Positions 1 to 7,708 of a DNA stretch of 36,998 nt are shown in pieces (the first letter of the stretch is position 1; the number at the start of each line of letters is the position of its first letter). Below the pieces are notes generated by a model that worked only from the letters and a program-made list of their open reading frames with translations, was not told the origin of the DNA and ran no database searches. A program made the translations under genes and the position numbers. This DNA comes from Rhodospirillaceae bacterium. GTDB lineage: Bacteria > Pseudomonadota > Alphaproteobacteria > Rhodospirillales > JABHCV01. The stretch is taken from the NCBI GenBank assembly GCA_014382375.1, contig JACNJU010000154.1, positions 1 to 36,998 of the forward strand, given 5' to 3'.

Positions 1-2
1 TA

Positions 3-368
3 AATGAGACTGTTAATAACATGGTGGTCCCATTACATTATTTAAACATAATTAAAACTATGACGTCAGGTCACGCTTTATAACAATTTTGTTTAGCTAA
101 TAAAATTAATTCAAAGGAAGCTGCTAGATTAAACATTGTTTAAAATACTTTCAAAACACAAGAAGAACTCTAAAAATAAATTAAAGAATTTGCTGACTAA
201 ACAAATGTTATTGCAATCAATAGAGATACATTTAAATCAACTAAAATGAGTATAGTCAGACCAATTTATGATGAGCTAGCTAAATTTGCGGGATAAAATC
301 ATTAAGGATCTCTTTATGATTTATAAATGCATGCTAAATAATGGTCTAAGCTTCAAGCTAAATTGTGA
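3..368 (+). CDS. C-terminal part of a ciliate gene (TAA = Gln), crotonase-like
   Basis: This frame is open for 121 codons only if TAA is read as glutamine. Nine in-frame TAA codons occur beside normal CAA codons, no in-frame TAG occurs, and the frame closes at TGA (366-368). This fits the nuclear code of Oxytricha/Stylonychia-type ciliates; Euplotes uses TAA as a stop and is excluded. The 5' end lies outside the window. The translation includes KINSKEAARLNIVQNTF and, further on, a NRDTFKSTKMSIVRPIYDEL segment. These resemble the C-terminal third of enoyl-CoA hydratase/isomerase (crotonase) proteins, but that family call is tentative. The stop is followed by about 48 AT-rich bases and then the telomere, a typical 3' end for a gene-sized nanochromosome. 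It is foreign to the rest of the window. The reading frame is secure; the function is not. Confidence 0.75.
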
Positions 369-416
369 ATTATAAATATCTTAATTAATTTTAAATATCA
401 TATTTTTAATTTGAGT

Positions 417-443
417 GGGGTTTTGGGGTTTTGGGGTTTTGGG
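417..443 (+). repeat. Ciliate telomere repeat (G4T4)3G3
   Basis: Three perfect GGGGTTTT units followed by GGG. This is the telomere repeat of hypotrich/spirotrich ciliates. The G-rich strand runs 5' to 3' away from the ciliate gene, as expected for the right-hand end of a macronuclear chromosome. Instead of ending, the sequence continues directly into bacterial pgl. Bacteria with circular chromosomes have no such repeat. Confidence 0.9.
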
Positions 444-723
444 CGAGGACGGGCATATTGCCTCACTGTTTCCTGATCAGGAAAACTGGTCCGCCGCCCC
501 CGGGCTGGCATTGGCTGTCGCCGGTCATCAGAAAAGACAACCCAGAATGAGTCTGACCCCGGCGGCGTTGCTTAACAGCCGCCATATTTTTGTTGTCATT
601 TGTGGGTCTGAAAAGCGCGCAATCCTTGATGCCGCCATGAAGCCCGGCCCTGTCGGTGATTACCCAATCCGCCTGGTTCTGCAGCAGGAGCAGGTGCCGG
701 TTACCATTTACGCCGTTGATTAA
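439..723 (+). CDS. pgl: 6-phosphogluconolactonase, C-terminal fragment
   Basis: This is the last 94 residues of 6-phosphogluconolactonase, which hydrolyses 6-phosphogluconolactone to 6-phosphogluconate in the pentose phosphate and Entner-Doudoroff routes. The diagnostic LGEDGHIASLFP motif opens the surviving part, and the LTPAALLNSR and GSEKRAI segments follow in the usual order. Family members are about 230-250 residues, so roughly the first 60% is missing. Upstream of the motif the frame runs into translated telomere repeat (GFWGFG), so the GTG at 415 is not a real start. The loss is caused by the junction, not by gene decay: what remains is intact. Its TAA overlaps the TAA of the convergent heparinase-like gene, with no room for a terminator between them. 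In related genomes pgl commonly sits with zwf or edd, which would lie beyond the break. Confidence 0.85.
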   Translation: MGEDGHIASLFPDQENWSAAPGLALAVAGHQKRQPRMSLTPAALLNSRHIFVVICGSEKRAILDAAMKPGPVGDYPIRLVLQQEQVPVTIYAVD

Positions 724-2366
724 ATTTTATGAAAGCGCCATTTGATTTGCGCGCCGTCGCCATGCAAGGGGCCAGCGATAACAATTTGCTCGCAACGTCT
801 GGGCTCACCATGGCCGCTCAGATAAATACTCTCCTCAAGACTGATGACACCGCCGGAAGCCTGAAATTGCCAACCGGCGCCGCTGCCCAGTTTCAACAGC
901 ACGGCGTCCCGACCCTGCACTTGCGATGCGTGAACGCCGGGGTGCAGGTGGAAGCGAACGCAAAAAGATCTTCCGCCCGAACCTTCGACAAGATCTTCAC
1001 CCCTGAAATCTTCCCCTGATGCATCAAGAAAAAATTTTCGACGATGAAGAATGCCAATAGTCTTTTTGTAACCATCGTGGGAGGTGTCAAGCCAGACAGC
1101 GCCGTCAGCCTCGCGGCGTGTGCATTCGACAATTTTGGGGCCGCTGATCAGGGAACCGTCGTCACTAAATTGCACTGAGTCGATTTCATCGGCTGACAAC
1201 GTGGAATGGGCGGCTGTGCTTCGCATAGCGGCAAACCATTTTTCACCTTCAGTGCTGGCCGCCCCGCAGTTGACGACCAGCCGGTCCTTGCCAACACTCA
1301 TTTCAAAACTGAGGGTGCCGGCATGGATGCTCCGTGCATTTGAAAAACCTGGCTTTCCAGTATCTGCGATGATCACCGTTCGTCCGGCGGCAAGTCTTTG
1401 AAAGCCACTATGGGGGGCGCTGGTTAAGGCCTTGCCGCGCACACCGGTACCGGCCAGCACTGTATCAATGAGGGTGCGTTTTTCCTCGAAGCCGCCGTTG
1501 AACAGGGCCAGCCCGCCATCGCCATGGCGCAGGGCCCGCAGCATCGGCGTTACCTTGTCGATAACACCCTGCAAATCGAGGGGGACTTCCTCATGGGCAG
1601 CAAGCAATAGTGCCCGGATTTGATTAAAGCGTGACAGCACGTCGAGCAGCTGTGATGGGTTGCGCTCACTATGGCCGCCGTCGGGAAATATCTGGGTGCG
1701 AATTTCTTTTGCAAGCAAATCGAGTGAACTTTCAAGCAGCGATTCAGCGCCGGGCAGGCAGATGGACGCGAAAATCAATCCCTGTATAGCCTTGAATTTG
1801 CGGGCGTCCCCGGGGGCCTGGGCGCAACTACGGCCCAGATGGCGGGCCTGGATCATGGCCATTTCAAGCAATACGACTTTGGTGTTTTCATTATCGGCAC
1901 TCAAAAATTCATAAAACGCCAGCCAGGCGCTTAAGCGTTCGCCAAGAATATCGGGACGCCATGACAGCTCATGCCATTTTCGATTGTGTTCAACCCAGCT
2001 AGTCAGTATGACTCCGGCCCGCGCCCGCGCTTCATCGCCACCGATGGCGAACAGGTCGGCAAGCCAGGAAAACCCGTGCAAATCGGCCAATTGTCCCGGA
2101 TCGTCCATGGACGCAATCCAGGGGTCTTGTCCCAATTGGGCGCGGTGATGGGACAAGGTAAAGAAACCTTCTAATATTCCCCGTCCGGCTTCCGGATCGC
2201 CGAGCCTGTAGGCAGGTGGAGAAAATCGAAGGGTGTCTGGCGTGCGACCCCTCAGGGTCAGGTGATAGAAGGGGCTGGCATATAGCAAATGACGCAGCGA
2301 ACGAGAACCGCTAGCAGGTGTTCGTGAAGATACTGACCCTTGGTTTTTCAATGATGCCTCGTACAC
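720..2366 (-). CDS. Heparinase II/III family protein
   Basis: This 548-residue protein has the layout of heparinase II/III-like proteins found in many alphaproteobacteria. It has an N-terminal alpha-helical region (HLLYASPFYHLTLRGRTPD near residue 30, then LHGFSWLADL) and a C-terminal beta-rich lyase-like domain that includes NGGFEEK, SFEMSVGKDRLVVNCG and FHLHPGV segments. The family includes polysaccharide lyases for acidic sugars, but the substrate of this group is unknown. No signal peptide is evident, so it may be cytoplasmic. It lies 60 bases downstream of rsmB on the same strand, an arrangement I recall from other Rhodospirillales, and is probably co-transcribed with it. The best available start is GTG at 2366; no strong ribosome-binding site is visible, so the first residues are uncertain. 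Confidence 0.8.
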   Translation of the reverse strand: MYEASLKNQGSVSSRTPASGSRSLRHLLYASPFYHLTLRGRTPDTLRFSPPAYRLGDPEAGRGILEGFFTLSHHRAQLGQDPWIASMDDPGQLADLHGFSWLADLFAIGGDEARARAGVILTSWVEHNRKWHELSWRPDILGERLSAWLAFYEFLSADNENTKVVLLEMAMIQARHLGRSCAQAPGDARKFKAIQGLIFASICLPGAESLLESSLDLLAKEIRTQIFPDGGHSERNPSQLLDVLSRFNQIRALLLAAHEEVPLDLQGVIDKVTPMLRALRHGDGGLALFNGGFEEKRTLIDTVLAGTGVRGKALTSAPHSGFQRLAAGRTVIIADTGKPGFSNARSIHAGTLSFEMSVGKDRLVVNCGAASTEGEKWFAAMRSTAAHSTLSADEIDSVQFSDDGSLISGPKIVECTRREADGAVWLDTSHDGYKKTIGILHRRKFFLDASGEDFRGEDLVEGSGGRSFCVRFHLHPGVHASQVQGRDAVLLKLGSGAGWQFQASGGVISLEESIYLSGHGEPRRCEQIVIAGPLHGDGAQIKWRFHKI

Positions 2367-2426
2367 ATTCAGGGTTACAGTTTAAGCCCGCCGATTGACA
2401 ATCTTATACAGGGTTAACCCCAACAC

Positions 2427-3719
2427 CTAACCACGAACAAGGCGGGCAGCGAAAAAGCCGTCCATGCCGCCATGTTCAGAAAGATGGTTGGGCAGGGTGC
2501 GCAAGACCCCTGCTCCGGTGATCAGTTCAGACAGGCCGCCAACATCATCAGCCGTGATTGGGTCAAGCTGCAAGGATGACTGCTCGGCAAGAATTTTTTC
2601 GATCAGATCCGGGCCTTCCTCGGGCTGCAGGGAGCAGGTGCAAAAAACCACTCGTCCGCCCGGTTTAACCATCTCGAGGGCGACTTCCAGCAGGCGATGC
2701 TGGGCGCTGCTCAGGCTATCGACGTCGGTTTGTTTTTTCAGGTAAGGGATGTCCGGGTGGCGACGGATTGTGCCGGTTGCCGAACACGGTGCGTCAAGCA
2801 GTACGGCGTCGGCCTGTTCCTCGGGTTTCCACAGGTTTGCGTCGGCGCAAATCGTCTCGCAGCTTAAACCCAGGCGAGTCATATTTTGCTCAAGGCGTTC
2901 CAGCCGTTTGGCGGAGCGCTCCACGGCCGTCACCTTGGCGCCGCGTACCAGCAACTGCGCCGTTTTGCCACCCGGTGCGGCGCACAGATCAATGACATGC
3001 TTGCCCTTAATGTCACCAAGCAGCAGCGCAGGCAAGGTGGCGGCGGTGTCCTGCACCCACCAGGCACCTTCATCAAATCCGGCAAGAGTGGTAACATTGC
3101 CGCCGGTGGCAAGACGCAGTGACCCGGTCGGCAAAATTTCCCCTTGCAGGGATTTTGCCCAGATGTCGGGATCGCCCTTAAGGGTGATGTCCAAAGGCGG
3201 TTCGTTCAGGTGGGCTTCGGCGATTTTTCGGCCTGTCGCCTTGCCGTATGTTTGCTGCCAGCTATCCCATAACCAGTCCGGTGTATTCAGGCGAGCAGCA
3301 TCCTGGTTCTCAGTGAATTTCTCACCTTCCCGGGTCAGTCTGCGCATGATCGCATTGACCAGTTTCTTGTAGGGTGAAAGATCGATGATATCAAGCAGCG
3401 AGACGGTGGTATCGACGGCGGCATGGGCCGGGATATTCAGGAAAAACAACTGGCAAATACCAAGCCTCAGGACATCACGAACGGCAACGGCGCGCCGCGG
3501 CAGTGGACGCTCCATACAGCGACCGATGATTTCATCAATCTGGCCCAGTCGGCGCAAGGTCGTGGCCGACAGGTTTCTCGCAAATGCCCGCTCACGCGGC
3601 TCCAGTGCAGTAAAGCCCGCATGCCCCTCAAGGGTCTCATCAAGGGGCCTGTGTTTCTTCAGGACGGAGCTGATAAGGTCGAGAGCGACGGAGCGGGTGG
3701 TCAGTGATGGAGTTGCCAT
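2427..3719 (-). CDS. rsmB: 16S rRNA m5C967 methyltransferase RsmB
   Basis: RsmB (Sun/Fmu) transfers a methyl group from S-adenosylmethionine to C5 of cytosine 967 of 16S rRNA. The protein has a NusB-like N-terminal domain (LDETLEGHAGF, then RAFARNL and HAAVDTTVSLLD) and a Rossmann methyltransferase domain with DLCAAPGGKTAQLL as the SAM motif. The two cysteines typical of RNA m5C methyltransferases are present in LDAPCSATGTIRRHPD and FCTCSLQPEEG. The length of 430 residues is normal. The frame extends upstream to a TTG at 3770, but the ATG at 3719 gives the usual N-terminus (MATPSLTTRSVALDLI) and leaves about 90 bases between this gene and the divergent small gene. It heads a two-gene unit with the heparinase-like gene. 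Confidence 0.93.
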   Translation of the reverse strand: MATPSLTTRSVALDLISSVLKKHRPLDETLEGHAGFTALEPRERAFARNLSATTLRRLGQIDEIIGRCMERPLPRRAVAVRDVLRLGICQLFFLNIPAHAAVDTTVSLLDIIDLSPYKKLVNAIMRRLTREGEKFTENQDAARLNTPDWLWDSWQQTYGKATGRKIAEAHLNEPPLDITLKGDPDIWAKSLQGEILPTGSLRLATGGNVTTLAGFDEGAWWVQDTAATLPALLLGDIKGKHVIDLCAAPGGKTAQLLVRGAKVTAVERSAKRLERLEQNMTRLGLSCETICADANLWKPEEQADAVLLDAPCSATGTIRRHPDIPYLKKQTDVDSLSSAQHRLLEVALEMVKPGGRVVFCTCSLQPEEGPDLIEKILAEQSSLQLDPITADDVGGLSELITGAGVLRTLPNHLSEHGGMDGFFAARLVRG

Positions 3720-6676: not shown

Positions 6677-7708
6677 ATGTCTTCTCAATCCGAAAAGCTT
6701 GTCTGTAATAATGTCTGGAAGATTTTCGGTGAAAATCCGAAAAGTGTTCTGGCCCGCCACAACCACGCGCCCAGCGCCGGGCAATTGGCCCAGGAAGGTT
6801 ACATCGGGGCGGTGCGCGACGTCAGCCTGTCGGTAAAGGAAGGCGAAATTTTTATCATTATGGGCTTGTCCGGTTGTGGCAAGTCAACGCTTGTCAGGTG
6901 CATGAGTCGCCTGATCGAACCATCGGCGGGTGAAATCCTGTTTAACGGACAGGACCTTCTGAAAACCGGCGAAAAGGAACTGATCGATATTCGCCGTCAC
7001 AAGATGGGTATGGTGTTTCAGCATTTTGCCCTGTTGCCGCATTTAAACGTTATGGGAAATGTCGCTTTCCCGCTTGAAATTCAGGGCGTCAATCGACAGA
7101 CACGCGAAGCGCGCGCCGCCGAGGTCATTGAACTGGTTGGGCTTGTCGGTCGCGAAAATTATTATCCGCGCGAACTTTCCGGTGGCCAGCAACAGCGTGT
7201 TGGCATAGCCCGCAGCCTCGCGGTGGAGCCGGAGATCTGGTTCCTCGACGAGCCGTTCTCCGCCCTTGATCCGTTGATCCGCCGTGAAATGCAGGATGAA
7301 TTTCTGCGCCTGCAAAGTGTTCTGCACAAAACCATCGTTTTCATTACCCACGATTTTGACGAGGCGATCCGCCTTGCCGATCGTATCGCCATTATGAATG
7401 GCGGCGAAATTATCCAGACCGGGACGCCCGAAGAACTGGTCCTTAATCCGGCAACTGAATACGTCTCGGAATTCACCCGCGGTATTCCCCGCGCCAAGGT
7501 GCTGTCGGCGTCCGCCATCATGGTTCCGGTTTCCGGTGACGCGGTTTCGGGGCAGGTGGCGATGGCGACAAAAATTGATGATCTGGCCGCCGACATGGTC
7601 AGTGCGAATGCGCCGCGGGCGGTCATCAATAACGATGGTGCGGTGGTCGGTGAAATCACCCGCGATGCAGTGTTGGCCGTGCTTGTCGAAAAAGAAGGGC
7701 AGCCATGA
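6677..7708 (+). CDS. ABC transporter ATPase, glycine betaine/choline type (ProV-like)
   Basis: The ATP-hydrolysing subunit of the quaternary-amine importer. The 343-residue protein has Walker A GLSGCGKST (about 63-71), the signature LSGGQQQRVGIARS (about 167-180), Walker B IWFLDEPFSALD (about 187-198) and the switch region FITHDFDEA. A C-terminal extension of about 90 residues includes AVINNDGAVVGEITRDAVL, a CBS-like segment; CBS domains act as ionic-strength sensors in OpuA-type transporters. I take the ATG at 6677 (MSSQSEKLVC). An in-frame ATG at 6602 would run translation through the intercistronic hairpin and give an Arg-rich leader with no family resemblance. The last four bases (ATGA) overlap the permease start, implying coupled translation. 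Confidence 0.9.
   Translation: MSSQSEKLVCNNVWKIFGENPKSVLARHNHAPSAGQLAQEGYIGAVRDVSLSVKEGEIFIIMGLSGCGKSTLVRCMSRLIEPSAGEILFNGQDLLKTGEKELIDIRRHKMGMVFQHFALLPHLNVMGNVAFPLEIQGVNRQTREARAAEVIELVGLVGRENYYPRELSGGQQQRVGIARSLAVEPEIWFLDEPFSALDPLIRREMQDEFLRLQSVLHKTIVFITHDFDEAIRLADRIAIMNGGEIIQTGTPEELVLNPATEYVSEFTRGIPRAKVLSASAIMVPVSGDAVSGQVAMATKIDDLAADMVSANAPRAVINNDGAVVGEITRDAVLAVLVEKEGQP

Follow-up and report, generated by a model that had tools for sequence, protein, structure and literature searches.

According to excerpts of a published description, only a very short spacer separates the gene of a macronuclear nanochromosome from a simple telomeric repeat, and the commonest telomeric repeat at the starts of Stylonychia reads is 20 bases long (PMC4122937). 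Excerpts of a second paper give telomere runs of 16–96 bases for contigs of Euplotes aediculatus and the G4T4 repeat for Euplotes (PMC10449743). A third, on the Euplotes focardii consortium, treats contigs without terminal telomeric repeats as potentially prokaryotic (PMC4494151). A limited literature search, covering titles and the beginnings of abstracts, found no report on G4T4-tagged chimeras in prokaryote collections. Here we describe a contig of an alphaproteobacterium (Rhodospirillaceae) that starts with such a nanochromosome end.

The stretch of DNA analyzed (the window, 36,998 bases) is the initial part of contig C114 (64,945 bases), and what is described below as the ciliate piece is therefore located at the start of this contig. 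The genome (G000) comprises 3,300,286 bases in 205 contigs, with 99.37% completeness and 2.12% contamination. The features concerned are the following:

1–416, + strand: 3′-terminal part of a macronuclear nanochromosome from a spirotrich ciliate, not native to the bacterium (GC content, composition change point, single copy, outward telomere)
3–368, + strand: last 121 codons of a putative ciliate coding region, followed by a TGA stop (code 6 translation, codon-phase asymmetry)
369–416, + strand: 48 bases, 4 of them G or C, forming a 3′ untranslated region or subtelomeric spacer
417–443, + strand: telomere, (GGGGTTTT)3GGG, with the G strand directed into the bacterial DNA
440–443, + strand: TGGG, a possible overlap at the join, matching both the telomere repeat and the pgl motif of relatives
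444–723, + strand: C-terminal part of pgl (6-phosphogluconolactonase), matching PF01182 with 72.1 bits at profile positions 136–221 of 225
720–2366, − strand: heparinase II/III-like gene, convergent with pgl (Pfam)

The GGGGTTTT units lie at 417–424, 425–432 and 433–440 and are followed by GGG (441–443), the next base being C. When up to 2 mismatches were allowed, the 16-mer GGGGTTTTGGGGTTTT was found in the window only at 417 and 425, two matches that were reached by none of 100 dinucleotide shuffles. A search of the whole 3.30-Mb genome gave 417–443 as the sole 16-base G4T4 site, together with three further 12-base matches, all within DNA of 51–64% GC. The telomere 20-mer was present in one of 297 genomes searched, namely this genome itself, and in none of the 296 others, which are its relatives. 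The base composition changes at the same place: GC content per 400-base bin is 25.5% in 1–400 versus 45–64% in all other bins of the window, and the best composition change point in 1–3000 falls at 412 (24.8% versus 56.3% GC, log-likelihood gain 73.4). DNA of about 25% GC thus abuts alphaproteobacterial DNA of 56% GC, with a sharp border at the telomere. The remainder of the contig contains no 400-base window below 40% GC (minimum 40.2%), and no second copy of 1–416 was found in the genome. The original prediction, which took three perfect repeat units plus GGG as the boundary between AT-rich and bacterial DNA, therefore describes the site correctly.

The frame starting at base 3 is open for 121 codons if TAA is read as Gln, and ends with a TGA stop at 366–368. 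It contains 9 TAA and 3 CAA codons but no TAG or CAG (0 each), and the 5′ part of the coding region would fall outside the contig, beyond its start. An open frame in the ciliate code was considered as proof of a ciliate gene and rejected as insufficient, since an equally long TGA-free frame arose in 528 of 1000 dinucleotide shuffles of 1–416. Codon periodicity was adopted as evidence for this reason: the codon-phase asymmetry of 1–365 is 25.7, compared with a shuffle mean of 6.0, and was matched by 1 of 5000 shuffles, G occupying codon positions 1, 2 and 3 in 29, 9 and 13 of the 121 codons, respectively. The G strand at 417–443 runs outward from this frame, and the coding DNA lies near the telomere across a short AT-rich gap (the 48-base spacer). 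Searches with the deduced protein gave no family in Pfam (best DUF7708, E 0.038, below the cut-off), no significant relative among PDB sequences (best E 0.29), a best E of 6.1 by tblastn against the 115 listed telomere loci from GTDB, and no relative in IMG/VR; a single-sequence structure prediction was poor (mean pLDDT 43.8). The nine in-frame TAA codons ahead of the TGA stop are putative Gln codons that no homologue was found to confirm. Judged from its sequence, 3–368 looks like the end of a ciliate gene, and gene, spacer and telomere together look like the layout of a nanochromosome end. An AT-rich ciliate gene end had been predicted here, and it is supported by the low GC content and the codon periodicity.

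It was also predicted that the repeat is the telomere of hypotrich ciliates. The assignment to a ciliate, and more precisely a spirotrich, stands, while hypotrich is too narrow, since G4T4 telomeres are common to spirotrich ciliates generally. The use of TAA for Gln with TGA as stop, as read in the 3–368 frame, presumably speaks against Euplotes, and the same code is not known to tell hypotrichs from oligotrichs or choreotrichs. Given the distribution of genetic codes, this code would point to a spirotrich other than a euplotid as the source. Nor does a run of 27 bases help in naming the ciliate order, next to the 20 bases given for Stylonychia and the 16–96 for Euplotes aediculatus.

On the other side of the border, the PF01182 match of the pgl piece is above the curated cut-off (27 bits). 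As the prediction of a bacterial pgl gene implied, it begins at the border, and it is truncated: rather than the full length of the profile, only the C-terminal portion is covered, and the piece keeps the last ~94 codons, with ~130 N-terminal residues gone. Whole pgl genes are present in the same-genus genomes G001 (226 aa) and G003 (226 aa) and in the same-family genomes G004 (230 aa) and G005 (223 aa), and no pgl match was found in the third same-genus genome, G002. The order of pgl and the heparinase-like gene is the same in G001 and G005, and this neighbour shows the bacterial side to be ordinary chromosome. The pgl of G001 resembles the piece described here in sequence (85.1% identity across 94 residues) and in its convergent heparinase-like neighbour, but differs in being whole.

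Searches of this genome with the PF01182 profile and the G001 pgl recovered neither the 5′ part nor any further piece of pgl. The bacterial continuation was also sought with these two, with G6PD_C and with the upstream neighbours of pgl in G001 and G005; only the window itself or weak matches of 27–33% identity were returned, and the upstream gene order varies among the relatives. None of these searches placed the missing bacterial chromosome end on another contig of the genome. The G6PD_C profile had no match in this genome, whose sole recovered pgl piece is the truncated one; the oxidative pentose phosphate branch may be truly absent or may lie in assembly gaps.

Two unrelated DNAs thus abut in the contig, and the join cuts a gene that is intact in relatives. 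We observed that two different DNAs meet, that the telomere faces the bacterial side, that pgl is cut and that other contigs have a like anatomy (see below), and the start of the contig is very probably a chimera that arose in vitro or in silico from a nanochromosome end and an unrelated bacterial break. A chimeric contig end had been predicted, and the composition break, the cut pgl and the lack of the 20-mer in the relatives agree with it. The border coincides with the telomere, whose orientation is that of a completed ciliate chromosome end, and both count for a chimera. Because ciliate DNA lies behind the G strand and bacterial DNA ahead of it, a finished chromosome end was joined to something else. 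Capping of the bacterial DNA by telomerase would have left that DNA behind the G strand and, since the G strand instead heads into it, was rejected for this contig.

We infer a laboratory or software step (ligation, amplification or assembly) behind the join. The sequenced sample would have contained DNA of a spirotrich ciliate reading TAA as Gln; macronuclei of this kind carry a great number of short chromosomes that end in G4T4 repeats. One nanochromosome would then have been joined by its natural 3′ end to a break within pgl of the unrelated alphaproteobacterium, whether through ligation of fragments, a template switch in the course of amplification, or an assembler's use of a short overlap such as TGGG as a bridge. 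In the loci of relatives seen at this motif (L119, L123, L124, L128 and L131), pgl has ATGGGCGA or CTGGGCGA, so TGGG at 440–443 is compatible with telomere and gene alike; it was perhaps the overlap used at the join, as judged from the motif of relatives rather than from the native bases of the species itself. The contig would then have been binned with the bacterium, and kept there because almost all of it is bacterial. Positions 1–443 are almost certainly a contaminant and, as bacterial biology, an artefact.

To look for similar joins, the GTDB contig collection was scanned with the telomere 20-mer, which gave at least 115 stretches with at least 136 runs. Among the matches listed, at least 75 G4T4 runs in at least 65 loci were directed off a contig end, compared with 3 that lay within 30 bases of an end but faced inward, and 58 that were internal. 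This asymmetry of 75 to 3 among the matches listed indicates that most terminal runs are real telomeres. From the 61 listed runs not directed off an end, 17 contigs with an anatomy like that of the window were selected by hand and non-blind, most of them as candidates: L006, L008, L018, L019, L022, L026, L039, L048, L065, L066, L068, L084, L097, L103, L104, L107 and L112. One of these, L084, carries one of the 3 inward runs; no more than 64 bases lie behind the telomere in L018, L065 and L084; and in L022 the telomere adjoins a G-rich repeat. Five others of the 22 loci inspected (L003, L024, L049, L053 and L083) were left out as unclear or repeat-like. The other internal runs, e.g. in Microcystis, Saprospiraceae maxbin.051 and Shewanella, were left out on inspection because they have the appearance of native repeats. 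All 17 contigs are titled MAG, under labels that include Proteobacteria, Bacteroidetes, Planctomycetes, Verrucomicrobia, Chloroflexi, Actinobacteria and others.

In L008, the 1,455 bases behind the telomere have a frame of 444 codons in code 6 versus 55 in the standard code, and the code 6 frame contains ThiF and rhodanese domains. Clear domains were found in 4 of 9 ciliate-side frames, namely those of L008, L019 (Vps26), L112 (UPF1 zinc-binding) and L066 (papain-type protease, which is not eukaryote-specific); L068 had a TPR match below the cut-off, and L097, L103, L104 and L107 had no domain at E 1e-5. On the bacterial side, 4 of 10 frames are cut at the join with matches above the cut-off (L008, DndB; L026, sulfatase; L048, epimerase; L066, kinase), L112 being a weak fifth truncated case below the cut-off. 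Domains without clear truncation at the join were found in L039, L065, L068 and L104, and no domain match was found in L097. In L022, L066, L103 and L107, a telomere at the start is followed by a ciliate piece, a second telomere and then, directly, other DNA. Such varied partners and one-sided joins are as chimeras give.

These contigs also bear on the alternative that the nanochromosome end was truly integrated into the bacterial chromosome by eukaryote-to-bacterium transfer, the telomere being kept and pgl disrupted. In its favor, the contig is continuous over its 64,945 bases, and the genome is nearly complete with little contamination (the values given above). However, no bacterial DNA is seen on the far side, as the contig opens within the ciliate piece; an insertion should leave the 5′ part of pgl somewhere, and this part was not found in the genome; the insertion is absent from all close relatives searched; and insertion does not explain why L022, L066, L103 and L107 join other DNA past the second telomere on one side only. 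We therefore consider integration very unlikely.

In addition to the internal joins, telomeres are found at the tips of contigs. Nine contigs of 3.1–7.4 kb in bacterial MAGs (L010, L012, L014, L028, L072, L080, L108, L109 and L111) have an outward telomere at both ends, and these two-telomere contigs are probably complete ciliate nanochromosomes binned with bacteria. In L012, L014, L028, L080 and L111 the code 6 frames far exceed the standard-code frames, whereas the JARLIC contigs L010, L108 and L109 are GC-rich and less clear as nanochromosomes. Several GC-rich terminal contigs, including JARLIC L009, L051 and L109, show no clear composition change point, and L069, a cyanobacterial isolate contig among the 65 loci above, has 50–61% GC over the 300 bases nearest the run, which is possibly a native repeat. 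In a second class, formed by some GC-rich contigs, the tip is a telomere backed by a short AT-rich stretch, beyond which bacterial genes begin. The trigger-factor domain of L064 (46,846 bases; tip at 6,711–6,846 of the locus) begins at profile position 63 of 144, and a DegT-type gene of L067 (tip at 1–92) begins at position 98 of 360, both being truncated beside the tip. The joins in these two fall in the interior of a ciliate chromosome and thereby mirror the join in C114. In two contigs filed under Candidatus Anadelfobacter sociabilis FL12-VI (L050 and L077), a G4T4 run lies near the contig start, and the frames behind it reach 244 and 491 codons when TGA is recoded, versus 139 and 290 codons, respectively, in the standard code. 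Candidatus Anadelfobacter sociabilis is a symbiont of Euplotes, and Euplotes contamination fits both contigs.

In IMG/VR, the 20-mer was found in 16 contigs filed as viral (L156–L171), at an end of the fetched stretch in 15 of the 16. One of them, L161, has a telomere at both ends, encodes topoisomerase II and looks like the complete ciliate nanochromosome for this enzyme. Phage genes were observed in L165 and L171 (terminases) and L160 (baseplate protein), and L169 has telomere runs at 1–20 and 886–905, followed by DnaB-like helicase DNA.

Ciliates eat bacteria and, after injection, cap foreign linear DNA with telomeres. The contig could accordingly be a real ciliate molecule, in which bacterial DNA taken up from food or a symbiont became attached, inside the macronucleus, to the end of a nanochromosome. 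L064, L067, L165 and L171, with bacterial or phage genes close to a telomere that points outward, are in keeping with this reading. In C114, however, the orientation of the G strand, which faces the bacterial side, shows that telomerase did not cap that DNA, and the remainder of the 64.9 kb is ordinary bacterial chromosome in which pgl has its usual neighbour; such a molecule is extremely improbable. It is hardly credible, too, that some telomere-tipped bacterial or phage contigs are real macronuclear captures of prey or symbiont DNA, joined to nanochromosomes or given telomeres as these are, and C114 a by-product of that process. Finally, a repeat and AT-rich stretch native to the bacterium, e.g. 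a low-complexity repeat next to what remains of a phage or plasmid, has a parallel in the G4T4 runs of at least 20 bases with similar flanks in Microcystis and Shewanella isolate contigs (among the matches listed), but can be practically dismissed in view of the 25% versus 56% GC, the single copy of 1–416, the codon periodicity of a frame that contains nine TAA codons, and the relatives with an intact pgl and no repeat.

The chimera remains the preferred reading. The suggestion that the ciliate was a host, predator or co-cultured cell was not supported, the genome having a single 16-base G4T4 site and like joins occurring in MAG contigs of many bacterial phyla, with telomere tips in IMG/VR phage contigs. 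This spread over phyla and phage contigs is as expected of ciliates merely sharing the sample. For this bacterium, 1–443 should be trimmed and pgl regarded as broken by the contig end. The same type of error recurs in public genome collections: 17 picked GTDB contigs look like fusions, and the 20-mer was found in at least 115 GTDB stretches and in 16 IMG/VR contigs. Genes on telomere-tagged pieces can pass wrongly for horizontal transfers or viral genes. The telomere is a useful tag with which to screen for such pieces in genome curation.

The GTDB MAG contigs with telomeres (L008, L019, L104, L107, L112 and others) are like C114 in having ciliate-code DNA behind an outward G4T4 telomere that abuts other DNA. 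They differ in their partners and in their telomeres, which are 20 to 42 bases long compared with 27 in C114, and some hold a whole nanochromosome. The nanochromosome ends of Stylonychia and Euplotes, as far as the excerpts describe them (PMC4122937, PMC10449743), share with 1–443 the C4A4/G4T4 repeat, a gene near the end and little AT-rich spacer between. In those ciliates, however, the telomere is the end of the molecule, whereas in C114 only the 3′ tip of the nanochromosome is present and bacterial DNA comes next.
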